NCBI RefSeq assembly: GCF_002028545.1
Contig: NZ_MWPQ01000004.1
Span: 1-64,000 of the forward strand
DNA length: 64,000 bases
Direction: 5' to 3'
From: Nitrobacter vulgaris
GTDB taxonomy: Bacteria; Pseudomonadota; Alphaproteobacteria; Rhizobiales; Xanthobacteraceae
A program made the position numbers and the translations under genes. Shown in pieces: positions 25,512 to 36,858 of the stretch. Within the stretch, counting starts at the first letter, position 1. Each line of letters opens with the position of its first letter. The notes under the pieces were generated by a model. That model worked only from the letters and a program-made list of their open reading frames with translations. It ran no database searches and was not told where the DNA came from.

Positions 25512-26032
25512 CGCAGATCGTTTCCTACTTGGAAGGAAAAACCTGGTCGGCCCAACTCTCGTTGATGTTTGTGCTCGTCATTGCACCATTCGAGCACTCT
25601 ACTAGCACCCATACCGTACGCAGCGACGGTACATCACCACGATGGGCGATACGGCCAGTTCGAACTCATTGATTTTCTTTGATGAAATGGTGCCCAGGGG
25701 CGGGCGAAGGAAGAAAAGCAAAAACCGATAGTTAGGTGAGGTGGGAAAGTCGTTTTGTTTCCCACTATTCCATAGCTTTTTGATTGCGCGTTCCCACCGA
25801 CTTACGGGCGGTGGTTCGATGCCTAAAGGCGGAATCGAACTGGCCTCGCGATAGAGCTTGGTTCTCGCAGTTTGCCAGGCTGAATCTTTTTCTGCAGTTT
25901 TTGCCGCCTCGCGTCTTATCTTTGAAAACCAACGACAACCAACGCCATTGCTTGGTTTCCGGGGCCGCCGACTGGCGCTAACGGTTAGAACCCGGCCGGG
26001 GTGGAAACTCCTCCCAACTTCTGGGGGACGTT
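25512..26032. other. Left end of the integrated element: attL region and arm sites
   Basis: A 521-bp gene-free stretch. Host DNA ends at the attL core (25687-25704). Inside the element come GGTGGGAAAGTC (25740-25751) and two inverted variants, GTTTCCCAC (25757-25765) and GTTCCCACC (25790-25798), candidate arm-type integrase sites. The first and second form a hairpin, TGGGAAA/TTTCCCA. Confidence 0.6.
25687..25704. repeat. attL core of the tRNA-Phe element
   Basis: The 18-bp ATGGTGCCCAGGGGCGGG is identical to 36782-36799, the complement of the tRNA-Phe 3' end with CCA. Flanking bases differ at once on both sides. The distance between copies gives an element of about 11,095 bp. Confidence 0.88.
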
Positions 26033-26248
26033 ATGAACTTGCTTTCTATTAATGATGCGGCCGCACTCACCGGCCTCAGCCGCTCGACCCTCGCCAAACG
26101 CCGCTGCAACGGGAGTGGCCCGGCTTTTTTCAAGCTCGGGCGAGTCATTAAATATGACCGCGCCGATGTGGATGCCTGGATTCTGTCGCAACGTCGCAGG
26201 AGCACCTGGGCGGCGAACGAAAACGTCCGGCAGCCCAACGCCGCCTGA
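26033..26248 (+). CDS. AlpA/excisionase-like HTH protein
   Basis: A 71-aa protein built around a winged-HTH of the HTH_17/MerR-like type: MNLLSINDAAALTGLSRSTL, KRRCNGSGPAFFKLGRVIKY and DRADVDAWI. Such proteins control integrase or act as directionality factors in P4-like elements. A GGGGGACGTT stretch precedes ATG 26033. It is the first gene inside attL and the likely regulator of the rightward replication genes. Confidence 0.8.
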   Translation: MNLLSINDAAALTGLSRSTLAKRRCNGSGPAFFKLGRVIKYDRADVDAWILSQRRRSTWAANENVRQPNAA

Positions 26249-26290: not shown

Positions 26291-26524
26291 TTGAAAATTT
26301 TGAGCTTTCGCCACGGCCGTGGCGAGGGGCGACGCTTTGGCAATTTCGATGCTGAAGTAGCGCCAGGAATTATCATCAACCAACTTGCGCTGATTCGAAG
26401 GCCAGACGGACAATTCCGCGTCTTCGGCAATGGCAAGGGCGTGTTTCTGAAACGCCACGCCGAGCAAGAGCTAATCGAGCTTGCACTTGCGGCTTCCCAA
26501 ACATGCGGGAGGCACGCCGAATGA
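26291..26524 (+). CDS. Conserved element protein, unknown function
   Basis: A 77-aa protein starting at TTG 26291, with GGAG about 10 nt upstream. It begins KILSFRHGRGEGRRFGNFDAEV and continues with a beta-rich LALIRRPDGQFRVFG and an acidic/hydrophobic helix. The stop overlaps the next start (ATGA at 26521-26524), so it is translationally coupled to the helicase gene. A small replication accessory role is only inference. Confidence 0.6.
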   Translation: MKILSFRHGRGEGRRFGNFDAEVAPGIIINQLALIRRPDGQFRVFGNGKGVFLKRHAEQELIELALAASQTCGRHAE

Positions 26525-28038
26525 TTGCGCCTTACAAATGGATCGATCCTTCGACGCTGCCGCACCGCGGCGAGACAACCCAGAACTGGATCGCATTCGA
26601 TGAGGATGTTGACCCGGAAATTATGGAACGGTGGCGCCAGCGGTATGCCGGCGCGTGTGAGGCCAATGATCTAGCGGCGGACAATGACAACGAGCTTCCC
26701 GCAGCAGCAACGCCAACCAAATCCAAACTGACAGCCGACGAGGAACGCGAGTATCTGGAGAACTTCCAGCGCGAGCAACTGCTGCCCGGCGAGCGCGGCG
26801 AGCTTGTCTTTGATGACGCTGCGTTCCGCGCACCTTCAACCGGCCCATTCTGGCACATCAAAGAAGCGATCATTGAAGGTTTCGCCGGTGATGTCTTTAT
26901 GGGCGTGCTTGACGGCGCACCGAAATTGCACGTTGACGGTATCGTCGAGCCCATCACACCATCGGCACCGTTTCCCCTCGTAGATCCTTCCGAATGGCAC
27001 GGGACTGTCGCGACGGAGCGGGAGTGGTTTCTGTCCGGCCTCATTCCACACCGGCAGGTGACGCTACTATCGGGCGACGGCGGTATGGGCAAGTCGCTCC
27101 TGGCGCTGCAGATCGGTGCCACGTCCGCCTTGGCGATTAAAACGCTAGGGCTAGAGCCGCGACCAGGCCGTGTTCTTTATCTCGGCGCGGAAGACGAGGC
27201 CGACGAGTTTCATCGCCGGTTAGATGACATCTGCGCGGCTCATGGCCGCGAGATTGGCGACTTGACTGACCTTCGCATTCTACCGCTCGCGGATCAGGAT
27301 GCGATCCTTTCCGAACCGGACGCGAAAGGCAACATGAAGGCCACGCCTCTTTGGAAGCGTGTTGAGCGGTTCGTTAAGGATTGGCAGCCCGGCCTCATTG
27401 TGCTCGACACCGCCGCAGATCTGTATGGTGGCGATGAAATCAAGCGATCTCAGGTCCGGCACTTTGTCGGGATGTTGCGCAAGATCGCTATAGGCCACAA
27501 GTGTGCGGTGTTGCTGTTGGCTCATCCTTCTGTTGCCGGAATGACGTCGGGATCGGGCTATAGCGGCTCTACCGCGTGGAATAACAGTGTCCGTTCGCGC
27601 CTGTATCTCACGAGCGGCGAAGGCGACGCCCGAATCTTGAAAACAGTAAAATCGAATTACGGAAAAAAGGGCGGCGAACTCCACTTGGAATGGCGGGAGG
27701 GTGTGTTTGTGACCCACGATCCCACTGAGCCGACGATCGCGGATGGATTGATTGCAAGTCACGACGACAAGAAGTTTCTAGCCGTCCTATCGAAACTCAA
27801 TCGGAACGGTATGCGACCAAGTCCGAATAAGTCGCCATCCTTCGCACCGAAAATGATCGCGAAGCACCCCGACGGGAAGGGCACGAAGACTCAGGCAATG
27901 GAGCAGGCGATGCACCGCTTGCTGGACGCTGGCAAGATCAAGGTGGTGCAGGAAGGTCCGCCCTCGCGCCGATATGCTCGGTTGATCGTCTCCGCGGAGG
28001 ACTTCGGGGGAGTGGATGACGATGCGGATAGCGGGTGA
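26521..28038 (+). CDS. RepA-type AAA ATPase / DnaB-like helicase
   Basis: A 505-aa protein with a RecA-fold ATPase of the AAA_25/RepA class. Walker A is GDGGMGKSLL (about 185-194), followed by RVLYLGAEDEADEFHRRL. Walker B is PGLIVLDTAAD (about 291-301), and a sensor segment LLLLAHPSVAGMTSGSGYSG leads to SRLYLTS. The C-terminus is likely a winged helix. ATG 26521 overlaps the preceding stop. Such proteins start or unwind replication of plasmids and integrative elements. It is immediately followed by the TTCGCA array. Confidence 0.82.
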   Translation: MIAPYKWIDPSTLPHRGETTQNWIAFDEDVDPEIMERWRQRYAGACEANDLAADNDNELPAAATPTKSKLTADEEREYLENFQREQLLPGERGELVFDDAAFRAPSTGPFWHIKEAIIEGFAGDVFMGVLDGAPKLHVDGIVEPITPSAPFPLVDPSEWHGTVATEREWFLSGLIPHRQVTLLSGDGGMGKSLLALQIGATSALAIKTLGLEPRPGRVLYLGAEDEADEFHRRLDDICAAHGREIGDLTDLRILPLADQDAILSEPDAKGNMKATPLWKRVERFVKDWQPGLIVLDTAADLYGGDEIKRSQVRHFVGMLRKIAIGHKCAVLLLAHPSVAGMTSGSGYSGSTAWNNSVRSRLYLTSGEGDARILKTVKSNYGKKGGELHLEWREGVFVTHDPTEPTIADGLIASHDDKKFLAVLSKLNRNGMRPSPNKSPSFAPKMIAKHPDGKGTKTQAMEQAMHRLLDAGKIKVVQEGPPSRRYARLIVSAEDFGGVDDDADSG

Positions 28039-28039
28039 C

Positions 28040-28201
28040 TTCGCACACCTTCGCATCAGATTCGCACCACTTCGCACGCCTTCGCATGGTTCGCTAAACC
28101 GTTGAAATCATGAATGTTCGCATATCGCCTTCGCACCCTTCGCATGGTGTCGCAAGTTCTTGATTTCATTGACTTCGCACGCCTTCGCATGGGTGTTCGC
28201 A
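28040..28201 (+). repeat. TTCGCA iteron-like array, candidate replication origin
   Basis: Eleven TTCGCA hexamers start at 28040, 28050, 28061, 28071, 28081, 28117, 28130, 28139, 28174, 28184 and 28196. Most neighbours are 9-13 bp apart, i.e. on one helix face. The larger unit CTTCGCACGCCTTCGCATG is seen exactly at 28070-28088 and 28173-28191. AT-richer spacers lie at 28094-28116 and 28155-28172. The array begins 2 nt after the helicase stop codon. Confidence 0.75.
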
Positions 28202-28220
28202 CACCCCCCATACCCCTAGC

Positions 28221-28257
28221 GCCCTTCTGGCGCGCTCCTGAGGAGCGCGCCTAAGGG
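28221..28257 (+). repeat. Long hairpin next to the iteron array
   Basis: An 11-bp perfect stem, GGCGCGCTCCT / AGGAGCGCGCC, has a 1-nt centre and is continued after one mismatch by GCCCTT / AAGGGC. No T-run follows on either strand, so a structural origin element is at least as likely as a terminator. Confidence 0.6.
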
Positions 28258-28305
28258 CAGAGAGAAAAAGGGCCGCGCTGCCGGCCACTAACGAGGACCA
28301 TCACG

Positions 28306-28974
28306 ATGAACTACGCCAACGACAATAGCCCGCGAACCCCCGCTGAACACCGCGCCATGGTTGCCGAGCAATCCACGACGGGCGAGCGCACTTATCAATC
28401 CGGCTCGTGGCCGCAGGGCAACCGCCTCCACAAGGCCGGTAATATCCGCCTTCTAGGAGGGCTCGCGAGTTGGCAACTTCTCAACAGTATGCCACGCCTA
28501 GCCGCCGCGAACGATAATCAGTCCGTCAACGCAGCCTGCACCGAGATCACAGAGCGTGACGTCGTGGACGCCGACACCATCATGGCCGCGGTTGAAGCGG
28601 AGAAGAAGGAGCCTGGAAAACACTACCGCGAAGACACGCAGGAAATCTTCGTTGTCTCTAAACGAGACGAGGAGGGCCAGCCGATCAAAGGCGAGTGGCG
28701 GTCAATCGCTGGCGTCAGTTTCTCCAGCCGGCGCCATTCAGGGGCGAAACCGGATTGGAGCGTCGATGACGTTTCGGAAGAAGACAAACGGCTCCATGCG
28801 ATCGACTGCGAGCGCATTCGCGAAAAGCTTGGGGCCGCTGTCTGCACGTTGCTTGACCTTGCAGCAAGTGGAGCCACCACGACGGAGATTGCGGACAGCC
28901 TTAGTGTGAGCCGTGCCAAGGCTGAGAAGTATGTCGACGCGGTGATTGAAAAATATTTGAGCGTCGCGGCCTAA
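28306..28974 (+). CDS. Element protein with C-terminal HTH, unknown function
   Basis: A 222-aa protein. A polar N-terminus starts MNYANDNSPRTP and a second AANDNQ motif lies near residue 70. The middle is charged (REDTQEIFVVSKRDEEGQP). The C-terminal HTH, TTTEIADSLSVSRAKAEKYVDAVI (about 190-215), resembles sigma-factor region 4. It follows the origin-like array by 49 nt after a GAGGA ribosome site. Possibly a transcription regulator of the capsid genes; this is inference. Confidence 0.65.
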   Translation: MNYANDNSPRTPAEHRAMVAEQSTTGERTYQSGSWPQGNRLHKAGNIRLLGGLASWQLLNSMPRLAAANDNQSVNAACTEITERDVVDADTIMAAVEAEKKEPGKHYREDTQEIFVVSKRDEEGQPIKGEWRSIAGVSFSSRRHSGAKPDWSVDDVSEEDKRLHAIDCERIREKLGAAVCTLLDLAASGATTTEIADSLSVSRAKAEKYVDAVIEKYLSVAA

Positions 28975-29608: not shown

Positions 29609-30916
29609 TTGAACATCCAAACCCTTATCCGCCGCGCGCAGAAACTCGCGGACTCGATCACACCCGACATGGCTGAGGCCGACGTTGCAGAGATTGAGGC
29701 TCGCCACGCTGAACTTCTCGAACAAATCGATTTCGAACGCAATTTTCAGCCTGAGGAGAAGCGTCTCGGCATTCCATCGAAAGGAAGCAACGCTAAACGT
29801 CGGACCGCGCTGCTTGACGCGTTGGTTGAAGCTAAGGCTCCCGCCACTCATAGCACTGTGGCCGCGCACGCGACATCGCACGATCGCCGCTCTGCTATTA
29901 CGTCGGCGTTGATTGCTCGCGCAGTGCCGGGCCAGCAGCTGCTTTCGGGAGCGGAAAGGTATGCGGGCCTCAGTCTCCCCGAGATTGCGCGGACGCTGTT
30001 GTCTGAGCATCAACGCGCCGAAGGGCTGTCGCCCGCCGAAGCCCTGACTCGCGGATTCGCTACGACGTCGGATTTCCCGATTATCATGGGCAATGTTGCG
30101 AATGCCGTCCTGCGCGCAGGCTATGAGGCAGCACCGGCCGCGATTAAAGCAATTGCCCGACAGTCGACGGCGCGCAACTTCAAAGCGAAATCGTCGATTC
30201 AACTTTCAGCCGGTCCGAAGCTTGAACTGGTGAATGAACACGGAGAGTTCAAACGCGGTTCGCTCGTTGAAGGAGCTGAAAGCTACCGGGTAGCTACGTT
30301 TGGAAAAGTCTTCGCTATTACCCGTCAAGCCCTCGTGAATGACGATCTTGGCGCGTTCGATGCGATCGGGAGGGTTCTGGGCGCTGCGTCGGCTGAGTTC
30401 GAGGCGGACTTTCTCGTGAAGCTTCTCGAAGCAAACCCCGTGATGTCGGATACCAAAGCGGTCTTCCACGCGAACCATGGCAACTTGCTGACTGCAGCCG
30501 CGCTTTCCGTTGACGCGCTTTCCGCTGCGCGGCTCGCGTTACGGACGCAGCGAGGACTCGCAGGCGAACCGATTGCCGTGGCGCCGAAGTTTCTTGTCGT
30601 GCCCGCAGCGCTTGAGACAAAGGCCGAGCAGGTTCTCGCAACGCTTGCGGCTGCAACGGTTGATGAGGTGAACCCGTTCGCGCAGCGTCTTTCCCTGATC
30701 GTCGAGCCCCGGTTGACTGACGTTAAGGCGTGGTTCATCGCAGCCGATCCAGCCGCTGTGCCGTCGATAGAATACTCGTACCTGGAGGGCGCGTCCGGCC
30801 CGCAGCTAGAAACTCGCCATGGCTTCGACATCGATGGCCTCGAAACTCGCGTTCGTTTGGATTTCGGCGCGGGCTTCCTTGATCATCGCGGCATCGTTAA
30901 AAATCCGGGCGTGTAG
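29609..30916 (+). CDS. Phage major capsid protein (HK97 fold, Mu/fusion-type family)
   Basis: The 435-aa product matches the capsid half of the prohead-protease/capsid fusion family: FATTSDFPIIMGNVANAVLRAGYE, LELVNEHGEFKRG, YRVATFGKVFAITRQALVNDDLGAF, AVFHANHGNL, and a tail with YSYLEGASGPQLETRHGFDIDGLE and DHRGIVKNPG. The N-terminal 130 residues are helical and charged, as in a scaffolding delta domain that is removed on maturation. It lies 1 nt after the MerR-like gene and upstream of the protease gene. Confidence 0.85.
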   Translation: MNIQTLIRRAQKLADSITPDMAEADVAEIEARHAELLEQIDFERNFQPEEKRLGIPSKGSNAKRRTALLDALVEAKAPATHSTVAAHATSHDRRSAITSALIARAVPGQQLLSGAERYAGLSLPEIARTLLSEHQRAEGLSPAEALTRGFATTSDFPIIMGNVANAVLRAGYEAAPAAIKAIARQSTARNFKAKSSIQLSAGPKLELVNEHGEFKRGSLVEGAESYRVATFGKVFAITRQALVNDDLGAFDAIGRVLGAASAEFEADFLVKLLEANPVMSDTKAVFHANHGNLLTAAALSVDALSAARLALRTQRGLAGEPIAVAPKFLVVPAALETKAEQVLATLAAATVDEVNPFAQRLSLIVEPRLTDVKAWFIAADPAAVPSIEYSYLEGASGPQLETRHGFDIDGLETRVRLDFGAGFLDHRGIVKNPGV

Positions 30917-30924
30917 CGCTTCAA

Positions 30925-30944
30925 GGGCGGGCTTCGGCCCGCCC
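30925..30944 (+). promoter_or_regulatory. TTCG-loop hairpin between capsid and protease genes
   Basis: GGGCGGGC-TTCG-GCCCGCCC is a perfect 8-bp GC stem with a stable TTCG loop, 9 nt after the capsid stop and 18 nt before the protease start. No T-run follows, so it is probably a partial attenuator or an RNA-stability element rather than a full terminator. Confidence 0.6.
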
Positions 30945-30962
30945 GCTCCTATGAGGACTGTC

Positions 30963-31544
30963 GTGCAAACTCGAACTGAAACACTTCGCAGAAACACTGC
31001 CGACCCGGCCGCGCGCACGGTCGAAGTGGTTTGGACTACCGGCGCTCCAGTGCGTCGTTACCATATTGATGGCTATGACGTCGTGCCTTACGAGGAGCGC
31101 CTGATTGTCTCGGATAAGGCGATCGATTTATCACGCTTGAATGCGGGCGCACCTGTACTTGATGGACACCGCGCTGGAGGCGTCTCTGATCAGCTTGCAG
31201 TCGTCGAGCGGGCATGGATTGCCGGCGGCAGTGGCATCGCATTGTTGCGCTTCCCAGATGCTGGGACCAGTGCTCGGGCTGACGAGGTGTTCGCGCTCAT
31301 AGAGCAGGGGATCGTGCGCAACGTTAGCGTTGGTTATAGTCAGGATGATTGGAAAGACGAGTCCGCTACCGGAGCCGATGATGTTGCGGTACGAACAGTG
31401 ACGCGCTGGGTGCCGCATGAGCTTAGCCTCGTGACAATTCCAGCTGACGCAGGAGCCCAGGTGCGCAGTGGGGTGGCAGTGCGTGGCATGGTGGCGCGGC
31501 GGGGGGCGCTACGGCAGGCGCTGGCACAAAGGCTGGCCCACTGA
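30963..31544 (+). CDS. HK97-family prohead protease
   Basis: A 193-aa serine protease of the U35/HK97 type that processes the scaffold part of the capsid protein during head assembly. Family segments seen are DGYDVVPYEERLIVSD, APVLDGHRAGGVSDQLAVVE (catalytic His) and GIVRNVSVGY (catalytic Ser region), followed by WVPHELSLVTIPAD. GAGGA 5 nt upstream decides GTG 30963; ATG 30951 is in frame but lacks a ribosome site. The gene follows the capsid gene, the reverse of the usual order. Confidence 0.85.
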   Translation: MQTRTETLRRNTADPAARTVEVVWTTGAPVRRYHIDGYDVVPYEERLIVSDKAIDLSRLNAGAPVLDGHRAGGVSDQLAVVERAWIAGGSGIALLRFPDAGTSARADEVFALIEQGIVRNVSVGYSQDDWKDESATGADDVAVRTVTRWVPHELSLVTIPADAGAQVRSGVAVRGMVARRGALRQALAQRLAH

Positions 31545-32380: not shown

Positions 32381-32450
32381 TCTCTTTCACTAGCCTTCAC
32401 TAGCGTTTTTTAGCTTTCACTAGCGTTTATTAGTGCCCACTAGCCGCATT
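32381..32450. repeat. 10-bp phased repeat at the end of the AAA ATPase gene
   Basis: TAGC/TAGT occurs exactly every 10 bp at 32391, 32401, 32411, 32421, 32431 and 32441. CACTAGC occurs at 32388, 32398, 32418 and 32438. The array overlaps the last codons of the AAA gene and its 3' flank. Confidence 0.7.
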
Positions 32451-33731
32451 CTGTGTGCTGGAAAGAACATTGACTGCCGTTTGGGTATCGCCTTGAGACA
32501 GCGCGGGCTCTGCCTTTTTCTGAGATTCTCTAGCCTTTATCCATACAGCGAATGACCGCGTTGGGAGGCGGTATTCACCTCGTACCCTAGGATTGAGTAG
32601 GATTATCTTCCGATCTCTCAAGGCGGTGAGAGCGTTATTGACTATCGATGGTTTCACACCAGATCGATTAATAATCGTCTGGCGCCCGACCCAATCGTCC
32701 ATGTGGTCAGCCATCGCGATGAGTACGCGACGATAGTCTTCAGATCCAATTTTATCGATATAGATGTCAGCAAAATATTTTTTTCCAAGCTGATTCAGGG
32801 CTCCGTGTTCACTGAAGGTACCCTGAAGAACGTCTTCGATATTGATTCTATTGTCGGTATCTGTCGCGAAAGAGCAATGGGCAAATTCTTGTAGGAAGTG
32901 CGGATACCCCTCCGATAGGTTTGCGATCAGTTGCTTGGCTTGTAGATCGATGGTGGTTGGCGGTACGTTTTTTGCGTTTGCTTGATTCAAGCCCTGGTCA
33001 ATTACAGTCATCCGTTCGGAAAATTCTAACGGTTTTAGCTCAAGGATGTTGAAAATCCTTAGTGATGATTCGTGAGACTCCTTAAGTTTCTGCAAGAGGT
33101 CGGGGAGACCGCTGAGACCGATGCAAACTTTCTCGCAACGTCGCCGGGAAAGGCGCTCGGTGAGTAGTTTGCATAGCTGTCCTAGGTGAGCGTCGCTGGT
33201 TGGTCGGTCCGCCTCATCTATTAAAATTAGAACGCCCTCGATGGCGCCGGCGGACTCCTCAATTAAGTTTACGAGGACCTCTGTAAGTTCATCCAGCCTC
33301 CGGCCGTCGTTCGATAAAGGTATTGGGTGACCATATTTTACACCCGATATTTCGAAACGACTGAGAAAGTCCCAAGCTTTTTTGCAGCTTTCCACTAGGG
33401 GCTGCCTTGTTGAAATTTGGCGCTTTAGTTCCGTAAGAATCTCGTCGACGATATCATCATAGGCCATCGCACCGTGAAGTTCGATGTTCACCACAACAAA
33501 GGTGAGTCGGTTTACTCCATCATAAGTTCTGTCTCCCTTAGCCAGATAGTCGACCCACAGACAAAGCGACGATTTCCCAATCCCGCGCTCCCCTTCAATT
33601 ATGAAGTGTTGGGGATTTCCATCGCGAGTTTGCAAAAGAGATTGTTCGACGACCTGGATTTCCTCCGTTCTGCCCACAAACATGCCGGGTGATATAACGC
33701 TTCCGGGACGAAACGGATTTAATTTAGGCAT
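32430..33731 (-). CDS. AAA+ ATPase with winged-helix tail (Orc1/STAND-like), probable defence gene
   Basis: The 433-aa protein opens NPFRPGSVISPGMFVGRTEEI, typical of bacterial Orc1/AAA_16-like proteins. Walker A is GERGIGKSS (47-55), Walker B VLILIDEAD (167-175) and a sensor SGLPDLLQKLKE. A C-terminal winged helix (about 345-400) contains VGRQTIINRSGVKPSIVNNALTAL. The gene is markedly AT-richer than its neighbours. It is the last of four minus-strand genes, 78 nt after the AbiC-like gene, suggesting a sensor/effector partner. Confidence 0.78.
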   Translation of the reverse strand: MPKLNPFRPGSVISPGMFVGRTEEIQVVEQSLLQTRDGNPQHFIIEGERGIGKSSLCLWVDYLAKGDRTYDGVNRLTFVVVNIELHGAMAYDDIVDEILTELKRQISTRQPLVESCKKAWDFLSRFEISGVKYGHPIPLSNDGRRLDELTEVLVNLIEESAGAIEGVLILIDEADRPTSDAHLGQLCKLLTERLSRRRCEKVCIGLSGLPDLLQKLKESHESSLRIFNILELKPLEFSERMTVIDQGLNQANAKNVPPTTIDLQAKQLIANLSEGYPHFLQEFAHCSFATDTDNRINIEDVLQGTFSEHGALNQLGKKYFADIYIDKIGSEDYRRVLIAMADHMDDWVGRQTIINRSGVKPSIVNNALTALRDRKIILLNPRVRGEYRLPTRSFAVWIKARESQKKAEPALSQGDTQTAVNVLSSTQNAASGH

Positions 33732-33809
33732 TTATCCACCAAGTGTGTCGCGGTTAAAAAGCGGAGCTGCAACGAAGGTTGTACATCCGAGAGACGATGG
33801 AGCGCTATC

Positions 33810-34583
33810 TCATTTGTTCGGCCGACCTTCGAATGCAGGTGGCTGATAATATTGCCCAAATACGCCCCGTAGATCGGGGTCATTGAGGTATTTCAGAAGT
33901 CGAAATTCTTCGACGTATTTTGCAAAATCATTCGAACCGTCCGTCAGCCCGTTCCATCCGACTATACCGATTTCATATGTGGACAACTGGCCTCTTAGAA
34001 GATTCCCGTAACGTACTTTCTCAGCTGAGGTGAGAATTTTATCTTCGGATACCCGTTGAAGCATACTGTACATAACGCGAAAGTAGGGACCTAGTGTGTT
34101 GCTGCCGTCGAATTGGCAGGTCTGATCGTACCAGTTGGCCCACTGCTCCTTCTCGACCTTTCGTTGTGGTGCTATTTGCTTCGCCATGACGTGCATCGCA
34201 TTGTAGATTTTGATTATTGCAGCCTCACCACGAACGTCTGGTTGGTATGCTCCAGGTTGGAAAATTACAGCTTGCTTTCGCAGTTCGCGGAGTAGAGCGA
34301 GCAACTCAAAATAAGATGCCTCGAAACGCTGGCGGTGCAATTCGTCGCTCTGCGATTTGAGGCTAAACAGTACCGCAATAAATGCGCCTGCCGCGAACAG
34401 AGCATTCAACACACCGAAGCTGTCACCAAACTCACCGATGCTGTGTACATCCCATGTGATTGTCGCGCGCACCATCACATAGATGACCCATCCGCCGAAA
34501 ATAATTCCTACGGAAAACATTAATACATTGATCGTCGTTCTGCTCATCCAGCTCACCAGAGATAGACTGATCAGGTCAGTCAT
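33810..34583 (-). CDS. AbiC-like abortive-infection membrane protein
   Basis: The 257-aa protein fits the putative phage abortive infection family (putAbiC, Pfam PF16872). Two N-terminal membrane helices (about 15-70) enclose the motif GDSFGVLNALFAAGAFIAVL. Then come a heptad-rich LKSQSDELHRQRFEASYFELL and the conserved late motif YGNLLRGQLSTYEIGIVGWNGL. ATG 34583 overlaps the stop of the upstream 34-codon frame; a TTG at 34613 is less likely. The family is thought to stop phage growth by killing or arresting the infected cell. Confidence 0.78.
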   Translation of the reverse strand: MTDLISLSLVSWMSRTTINVLMFSVGIIFGGWVIYVMVRATITWDVHSIGEFGDSFGVLNALFAAGAFIAVLFSLKSQSDELHRQRFEASYFELLALLRELRKQAVIFQPGAYQPDVRGEAAIIKIYNAMHVMAKQIAPQRKVEKEQWANWYDQTCQFDGSNTLGPYFRVMYSMLQRVSEDKILTSAEKVRYGNLLRGQLSTYEIGIVGWNGLTDGSNDFAKYVEEFRLLKYLNDPDLRGVFGQYYQPPAFEGRPNK

Positions 34584-34680
34584 TTTTAGTCGCGTATTCT
34601 GCCGCTTCGCCAATGGTGCGAATGGTGCTGCCGTCTGGCATCGGGATAGGATTGTCGAAGCGGCGGGACCAGTTGGTCAT
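34576..34680 (-). CDS. Small coupled protein (34 aa) between regulator and AbiC-like gene
   Basis: The frame MTNWSRRFDNPIPMPDGSTI continues IRTIGEAAEYATKND. The RRFDNPIPMPDG motif is one I recall from short conserved rhizobial hypotheticals. Its ATG overlaps the regulator stop (ATGA at 34680-34677), and its stop overlaps the AbiC-like start by 8 bp (ATGACTGA at 34583-34576). That makes genuine translation likely. Function unknown. Confidence 0.6.
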   Translation of the reverse strand: MTNWSRRFDNPIPMPDGSTIRTIGEAAEYATKND

Positions 34681-35638: not shown

Positions 35639-36847
35639 GTGCCACGACCGAACCCTCCACGCCTGACGAAAGACATCGACCGGCACGGTAATATCCGATG
35701 GTACGTTCGCACGCTCGAAGGGCCAAAGGTTCGGCTGCGCGATGAATATGGCACGCCCGCCTTCTGGCAGGCATACCGTGACGCGATGGCCGGCAACATC
35801 AAGCCGCCACCGCCAAGCACTCGCATTGAACGCAAGCCGTTCAACAGGGACTCGCTCGCGTGGCTATGCTCGCAGTATTATACCTCCGCCGAATACAAGC
35901 AGTTGAATGAGCGAACCCGATACGTTCGGCGCGCGACTCTTGATCACATCTGCGCGGCGGATGGCGAAAAACCATACAAGTTGCTTTTGCCGAAGCATAT
36001 CAGAGCGCGTCGCGATGCGCGTGCAGATCGTCCCGAGTCGGCGAACGGCATGATCAAGGCGCTGAGGCAGGTTTTCGCCTTTGCCATTGAGAATGATTAC
36101 GTCGCTTCGAACCCGGCGAAAGCCGTGCCATATCTCAAGGCGAATGGTGACGGACACCACACCTGGACGTTGGAAGAGGTCGAGCGCTTCGAGAAGAAGC
36201 ATCCTATTGGCACCACGGCACGCCTCGCGCTCGCGCTGGGGCTTTACACCGGCCAGCGGAAATCAGATGCCGTGCTGCTCGGGCCAAAACACGTCAAGGA
36301 TGGTTGGCTTCACTTCACGCAATTCAAGGGCCGGGAGCGGAAGCCGATCACGCTCGACATCCCCGTGGTCGACGAGTTGCAGGCAATCATTGACGCCACC
36401 GCGTGCGGAAAGGAGACCTTCCTTCTGAACGGCCTCGGTAGATCCTTCACCGCCAACGGATTCGGCAATTGGTTTCACGATCGCTGTGTCGAGGCCGGCG
36501 TTCCCGGCCGCTTTCATGGACTGCGAAAGGCCGCCGCAACCCGCCTCGCCGAGCTTGGCTCCAGCGAGCGTGAGATCATGTCGATCACCGGCCACACCAC
36601 CTCGAAGGAAGTCATGCGATACACCCGGGCGGCGCGGCAGAAGGTGCTCGCCGCTTCGGCAATGGCGCGACTCAATCCCAAGTCAGAAATAGCCGTGACT
36701 TTCCCACCGGAATCCGGCCAGAAAGGTGGTGGGAAGAAACCACCAACTAACACATTGAAAAATAAGGATATAGACAAACTGATGGTGCCCAGGGGCGGGA
36801 TCGAACCACCGACACTGCGATTTTCAGTCGCATGCTCTACCAACTGA
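35639..36847 (+). CDS. Tyrosine-recombinase integrase of the tRNA-Phe element
   Basis: A 402-aa integrase. N-terminal arm-binding and SAM-like core-binding parts precede the catalytic domain with R207 (TGQRKSDAV), H293-x2-R296 (HGLRK), H319 (GHTTSKE) and the nucleophile Y328 (VMRYTR). GTG 35639 abuts the Xis-like stop. The last 16 codons read through the att core into the antisense of tRNA-Phe (VPRGGIEPPTLRFSVACSTN), so the present C-terminus is partly host-derived. In the excised circle the frame would end RRKKSKNR. Confidence 0.93.
   Translation: MPRPNPPRLTKDIDRHGNIRWYVRTLEGPKVRLRDEYGTPAFWQAYRDAMAGNIKPPPPSTRIERKPFNRDSLAWLCSQYYTSAEYKQLNERTRYVRRATLDHICAADGEKPYKLLLPKHIRARRDARADRPESANGMIKALRQVFAFAIENDYVASNPAKAVPYLKANGDGHHTWTLEEVERFEKKHPIGTTARLALALGLYTGQRKSDAVLLGPKHVKDGWLHFTQFKGRERKPITLDIPVVDELQAIIDATACGKETFLLNGLGRSFTANGFGNWFHDRCVEAGVPGRFHGLRKAAATRLAELGSSEREIMSITGHTTSKEVMRYTRAARQKVLAASAMARLNPKSEIAVTFPPESGQKGGGKKPPTNTLKNKDIDKLMVPRGGIEPPTLRFSVACSTN
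36697..36736. repeat. Right-end arm-type sites
   Basis: GACTTTCCCACC (36697-36708) is the exact 12-bp inverse of the left-end site at 25740-25751. GGTGGGAAG follows at 36728-36736 in the opposite direction. Both lie inside the 3' end of the integrase gene. Confidence 0.5.
36782..36799. repeat. attR core, overlapping the tRNA-Phe 3' end
   Basis: The right copy of the 18-bp direct repeat includes the CCA complement and half of the T-arm/acceptor. The tRNA gene itself remains complete on the host side. Confidence 0.88.
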
Positions 36848-36858
36848 GCTACCTGGGC
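36783..36858 (-). tRNA. tRNA-Phe (anticodon GAA), integration site
   Basis: A 76-nt cloverleaf on the minus strand: acceptor GCCCAGG/CCTGGGC, D-arm GCTC/GAGC, anticodon stem TGCGA/TCGCA with loop CTGAAAA (anticodon GAA), T-arm GGTGG/CCGCC with TTCGATC, and encoded CCA. The element recombined into its last 17 nt. Confidence 0.97.

Follow-up and report, generated by a model that had tools for sequence, protein, structure and literature searches.

A putative iteron origin behind an RSF1010 RepA-type helicase gene in a tRNA-integrated element of Nitrobacter vulgaris

Introduction

The Rep-ori systems of SaPIs and PICIs have their origin immediately downstream of the gene for the Rep helicase, as short iterons around AT-rich DNA that are read by the C-terminal domain of the helicase, according to the available parts of PMC6092414 and PMC7581432; these Rep helicases are related to the DUF927 or Primase_Cterm/D5 types (PMC7581432, same parts). 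The alpha protein of phage P4 binds its origin repeats through a winged helix and has a TOPRIM primase. In plasmid RSF1010 (IncQ), iteron binding is the task of a separate protein, RepC, and RepB' serves as primase at ssiA/ssiB (for both systems, the accessible text of PMC4234260). In the PLE satellites of Vibrio, the origin and the DNA-binding domain of RepA vary together, and specificity is exchanged in modular fashion; this RepA is described as having its RepA_N domain at the N-terminus and an origin of three semi-palindromic iterons of ~30 bp, and the available portion of PMC8263062 mentions no helicase motor.

Here we analysed a stretch of 64,000 nucleotides of Nitrobacter vulgaris (contig NZ_MWPQ01000004.1, positions 1 to 64,000), termed the window, in which an array of TTCGCA hexamers follows a RepA-type helicase gene (repA). 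As in SaPIs and PICIs, the array lies immediately 3' of the helicase gene, one base after the stop, and has iteron blocks (three) around AT-rich DNA (two spacers). The motor differs: it is of the RSF1010-RepA type with an AAA_25 domain, so that window RepA is not a SaPI Rep by family; RSF1010 itself has a separate iteron binder. The C-run element and the residue-base rule described below have no mention for SaPIs or PICIs in the available parts of PMC6092414 and PMC7581432. With P4 alpha the locus shares a winged helix, here predicted, in a replication protein with origin repeats, but no primase domain was found in window RepA. RSF1010 has a common helicase core and an iteron origin, whereas neither Pfam nor PHROG profiles identified a protein of the RepC or RepB type in the set of element proteins scanned. 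As in PLE, a DNA-binding domain and an origin appear to change as a module, although in the window the element has a helicase motor, a C-terminal domain and short iterons. Thus the layout, an iteron origin behind a helicase and read by its C-terminal domain, is known, and the RSF1010-RepA-type motor is what differs. A full-text literature search, with subscription journals mostly outside it, found no published description of such a helicase that ends in a winged helix and is followed by iterons.

By analogy, the best reading is that the element would work in the manner of SaPI/PICI Rep-ori and P4 alpha-ori, with an SF4 helicase as its motor. Judged from sequence comparison, the array is very probably the core of the element's replication origin, its iterons being bound by the C-terminal winged helix of RepA, which best explains the data as a whole.

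Results

Borders and gene content of the element

The array belongs to a small phage-like element of ~11.1 kb in tRNA-Phe, running from attL at 25687 to attR at 36782 (Table 1). An integrase gene beside the tRNA and flanking direct repeats identify a tRNA-integrated mobile element. The search for an empty site in relatives found none: of the joined flanks, matches covered just the part on the tRNA side. The proteins of the element that were scanned include a capsid protein and a prohead protease; in this set, neither a large terminase nor a tail gene was matched. In viral contigs, capsid relatives reach at most 53% identity among the best 80 of 372 loci.

Two further features of the element were observed. 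At 29609-31544, the capsid gene precedes the protease gene, the reverse of the order in PHROG 4523, a head and protease fusion: the capsid protein matches the C-terminal part of this profile and the protease its N-terminal part. At 32430-34613 on the minus strand, a putAbiC protein (PF16872, E 1.3e-17) is encoded beside an AAA_16/NACHT-like ATPase, a pair that is likely defence cargo.

Table 1. Coordinates in the window of the element borders, the array region and the features discussed.
Feature	Position	Strand	Basis or remark
attL, 18-bp copy of the tRNA-Phe end	25687..25704		direct repeat
AlpA-like HTH_17 protein, excisionase/regulator type	26033..26248	+	domain match
77-aa protein upstream of RepA	26291..26524	+	not conserved with the array
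RepA-type helicase, AAA_25, RSF1010 RepA fold, 505 aa from M at 26521	26521..28038	+	domain, sequence and fold matches
Predicted C-terminal winged helix, residues 406-490	27736..27990	+	AlphaFold2, structure comparison
Codon of S438, best tracker of core base 6	27832..27834	+	column scoring
Codon of Y485, best tracker of core base 4	27973..27975	+	column scoring
Putative iteron array: 11 TTCGCA + 1 TTCGCT in three blocks (28040-28094, 28117-28151, 28174-28201)	28040..28201	+	direct count; relatives' loci
AT-rich spacer 1, TAAGTCATTGAWWTCATT-like motif	28095..28116		32% GC
AT-rich spacer 2, TAAGTCATTGAWWTCATT-like motif	28152..28173		36% GC; minus strand fits WATCAANNNNTTR exactly
C-run/ATA/C-run element CCCCCCATACCCC	28204..28216	+	recurs behind relatives' helicases
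Strong hairpin behind the array, candidate single-strand initiation structure or terminator	28221..28258	+	-20.9 kcal/mol, z -6.1
222-aa protein downstream of the array	28306..28974	+	relatives in the close clade only (4 loci)
Tyrosine integrase, end overlaps tRNA-Phe	35639..36847	+	domain match
attR, same 18 bp within tRNA-Phe (36783-36858, minus strand)	36782..36799		direct repeat and tRNA

Organization of the TTCGCA array

The helicase stop codon TGA occupies 28036-28038, and a single base separates it from the first of eleven TTCGCA copies on the plus strand, which start at 28040, 28050, 28061, 28071, 28081, 28117, 28130, 28139, 28174, 28184 and 28196; a twelfth, near-copy TTCGCT lies at 28090. 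The successive TTCGCA spacings are 10, 11, 10, 10, 36, 13, 9, 35, 10 and 12, eight of ten within 9-13 bp. An earlier note, made from the sequence alone, had reported eleven copies within 162 bp, mostly 9-13 bp apart and adjoining the helicase stop, and our recount of positions and spacings agrees with it. The AT-richer segments that it placed between the repeats correspond to the two 22-nt spacers, which part blocks of 57-61% GC. The helical phasing that it proposed holds within blocks (9-13 bp), whereas across the whole array it is weak (best period 11.3 bp, R 0.68, p ~0.046 versus random placement).

The best-represented other hexamer in any 162 nt elsewhere in the window reaches five copies, compared to eleven for TTCGCA, and in 40 windows simulated with a second-order Markov model the highest count per 162 nt was 4-6. 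A search of the 3.9-Mb genome for a three-copy array pattern found 28040-28201 only. As an origin of the repeats, chance is ruled out by the simulations together with the control counts beside homologues given below.

Arrays behind homologous helicase genes

An array was counted where at least four non-overlapping copies of one hexamer occur within 220 nt behind the stop codon; the controls were 412 stretches behind other open frames of at least 200 codons in the same loci. From the window and 134 loci (135 in all), 113 were counted after leaving out four with short flanks (L001, L006, L031, L136) and 18 duplicates. This motif search beside homologous helicase genes, which the earlier note had proposed as a check, revealed arrays in 34 of the 41 distinct loci with at least 45% identity over at least 300 aligned residues (window included), versus 6/412 controls. 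Arrays also lie behind the stop in 3/5 loci with at least 45% identity and shorter alignment, in 14/25 at 30-45% identity, and in 14/42 with shorter matches below 45% identity, where the remaining 28 short or distant matches were negative. The count was negative in seven of the 41 close loci, five with arrays degenerate by eye (L002, L051, L062, L070, L076) and two with none (L020, L107). A later set gave arrays in 23 of 31 further loci.

The first copy lies at most 7 nt from the stop in 42 of 56 array loci, and copy spacings across loci peak at 10-12 bp (184/324). By eye, all 15 helicase loci of the first two scans, some of them mutual duplicates, have arrays directly behind the stop, with cores mostly TTCCAC and with TTCCAA in L003. 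Comparison of loci thus shows a constant array position and diverse cores: position, 10-12-bp spacing and the subsequent C-run element are retained among relatives, the core letters vary, and AT-rich spacers like those of the window are missing from many. A 6-bp core, which the earlier note had regarded as unusually short, is normal for this RepA-type helicase family. Directly repeated short sites lie near a replication initiator gene, and since the array is found beside close homologues as well, the iteron origin suggested by the earlier note is well supported by the comparison.

The array might alternatively serve as a regulatory operator, through which RepA or another element protein controls downstream genes and not the start of replication. 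It sits between repA and the gene for the 222-aa protein, which has a weak HTH-like match (E 0.03, under the curated cut-off), and binding by the RepA winged helix would fit an operator equally well. However, the array stays behind the helicase whatever is downstream, the 222-aa gene being recognisable in the close clade only, and the presumed binder is a relative of a replicative helicase. We consider an operator unlikely and favour an origin.

Arrays or their absence were also recorded at more distant loci. A second RepA of the same genome (L017, contig C34), 33% identical, has its own array with another core (around CTACAAACG) and a C-run element. In Wolbachia phage WOVitA1 (L135), the 220 nt that follow the gene annotated as RepA contain five TGGCAA copies (p 0.01), and the WOVitA2 record (L134) has no clear array behind RepA. 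On a few of the contigs with related capsid genes, phased hexamer arrays closely follow other long open frames of 439-917 codons (L216, L239, L240/L255, L242, L259).

Spacers, C-run element and hairpin

The minus-strand match in spacer 2 is to the IHF consensus. Exact matches to this consensus occur in 13/113 helicase loci versus 6/412 controls, and the TAAGTCATTGAWWTCATT motif, at up to four mismatches, in 14/113 versus 5/412, including L085 and L120, whose cores differ strongly from that of the window. In the close clade L047-L051 (helicases 71-80% identical), both spacers retain the motif and the core letters differ from those of the window. That the spacers stay the same while the core changes suggests that a host factor acts at the spacers alongside an element-specific reader of the array. 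A ACTCATTGATTTTCTT stretch similar to the spacer motif also lies just outside attL (25660-25686) and could bind IHF at the attachment site.

Two C-runs enclosing a short A/T-rich middle were found in 55/113 helicase loci, compared to 1/412 controls and to a mean of 8.7 (maximum 12) in dinucleotide-shuffled helicase stretches. Behind it, the sequence of the hairpin is mostly retained in L047-L051. Such hairpins could mean that the repeats act as RNA, or as a terminator or attenuator behind repA, and inverted core copies occur behind the C-run element, in hairpins of some relatives (28/46 loci versus a mean of 1.7 in shuffled tails). But the window and its close clade have no inverted cores there, and an Rfam scan of the window yielded two tRNAs only, with no family match in the array region. 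Moreover, the copies are spaced by about one helical turn and their letters are tracked by a predicted DNA-binding fold, which together point to duplex DNA. A role as RNA or terminator is accordingly highly improbable, and an origin read as duplex DNA is preferred.

The RepA-type helicase and its C-terminal domain

The gene before the array had been called a RepA-type helicase, and this identification is borne out: RSF1010 RepA is both the nearest solved relative by sequence (E 3e-13) and the best fold match. An alternative start, ATG at 26503, is also possible. Pfam recognises the AAA_25 and KaiC ATPase models only, indicating an AAA_25/RecA-fold helicase core; no primase domain was found in window RepA, and its PHROG matches fall on the helicase parts of the profiles. 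The helicases of L007 and L014 have what we presume to be a primase-like N-terminal part.

The RSF1010 RepA chain (279 aa) aligns to profile positions 38-255 only, so that the C-terminal domain lies outside the match. The last ~100 residues are predicted to form a winged helix: AlphaFold2 places helices at residues 406-428, 442-448 and 457-470 and strands at 473-478 and 485-490, and the C-terminal domain modelled by itself adopts the same fold. Structural similarity search with VIA-align gave as the best row the winged helix of SAMD1 on DNA (Z 9.4, 71 residues, 1.9 Å), which supports the fold class only, because such middling Z values are common. P4 alpha is absent from this list, which bears neither for nor against a relationship to it.

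Residues that track the core bases

Every variable protein column (186 in the ATPase, 79 in the C-terminal part) was scored against core bases 4, 5 and 6 in 40 TTC-type loci, with the ATPase columns as a control because they share the same ancestry. From 56 loci with a derived core, 47 entered the distance comparisons after L076, L090, L093, L097, L099, L134 and L135 were removed by hand and L017 and L119 were dropped as under the identity limit; the 40 scored comprise 38 with a TTC-type hexamer in at least three copies, plus two loci that have two exact copies each and were included manually, L005 and L024. Residue 485 ranked top for base 4 (z 12.7, compared to at most 6.5 among the ATPase columns), pairing R with C in 30 loci, Y or F with G in four and T or V with A in four; the exceptions are L048 (F with C) and L062 (R with G). 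Residue 438 ranked top for base 6 (z 31.2, compared to at most 7.4), pairing G with C in 21, S with A in 15 and C with A in one, with three G-A exceptions.

The residue-base rule was fixed in writing before further loci were fetched. These numbered 35, or 31 after one with a short flank (L140) and duplicates (L157, L158, L171) were left out, and scoring was limited to loci with at least three TTC-type copies and a residue covered by the rule. Base 4 was predicted correctly in 9/10 and base 6 in 7/9, a modest gain since the commonest base alone would score 7 and 5. The telling loci are L155 (Y, G) and L172 (T, A), and the exceptions L162, L160 and L172.

Whole-domain and tree-based tests on the winged helix and the core are not decisive. 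In partial Mantel tests, core distance correlated with C-terminal distance at 0.18 given the ATPase and with ATPase distance at 0.35 given the C-terminus; the winged helix was not singled out, and the core followed the ATPase more. Mapped onto the ATPase tree, base 4 and residue 485 each require at least 12 changes. Where branches are well supported, independent pairs agreed on average in 3.6/6 and 3.8/4 cases and disagreed in none (p 0.125 each), short of significance because there are too few supported pairs.

The earlier note had named the helicase or the 77-aa protein as binder. The association of residues with bases, seen by comparison, and the loci L003 and L004 make the helicase, through its own winged helix, the likely one; the 77-aa protein is not conserved beside arrays and, with weak partial matches in two distinct loci only, is ruled out as a general array binder. 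One could still suppose that the origin is real and that a separate small protein, the 77-aa or the HTH_17 protein, recognises the iterons while RepA only unwinds. RSF1010 uses a separate binder (PMC4234260, accessible text), and the 77-aa gene stands directly before repA. The arrays are common, whereas the 77-aa matches are confined as above, and the core letters track RepA residues. A separate binder is thus unlikely, and RepA is the preferred reader of its own iterons.

Natural exchange of winged helix and array

Two Bosea records, L003 and L004, share 95% identity in the ATPase and 26% in the winged helix. Their DNA is mostly 80-90% identical until ~300 nt before the stop; beyond this point, the array included, identity is ~50%. 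The core is TTCCAA in L003 and TTCCAC in L004. By this comparison, the winged helix seems to have been transferred along with its array. As the winged helix is at the gene end and the array directly behind it, the two form one cassette, exchangeable in one recombination.

Discussion

Both attachment repeats are present, and the element may replicate autonomously after excision, as suggested earlier. From the comparisons we infer how excision, binding, loading, melting, priming and replication could proceed. The excised element would be a circle, on which the C-terminal winged helix of RepA would bind the TTCGCA iterons; base 4 would be read by residue 485, in the wing, and base 6 by residues around 438. 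The two AT-rich spacers may bend, probably by host IHF, and so aid RepA binding. Bound RepA would then load hexamers of the RSF1010-RepA type, which could open the DNA either within the spacers or in the C-run/ATA/C-run element; priming and extension would fall to host enzymes, perhaps at the hairpin behind the array. The cassette of winged helix and array would thereby give each element its own origin specificity.

We further propose, with about even confidence, that a large alphaproteobacterial element family has a movable specificity cassette, a winged helix plus adjoining iterons, at the 3' end of an SF4 helicase gene. Two residues would largely set two core bases, and cassette exchange, or a few residue changes with concerted repeat change, would make a new origin without cross-reaction with co-resident elements.

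A previously unannotated repeat thus becomes a predicted origin with a named binder. Inspecting the DNA just behind the helicase gene may offer a simple route to finding origins of integrated elements. Moreover, the natural initiator/iteron pairs and the written residue-base rule would make the evolution of origin specificity testable by one or two residue changes.
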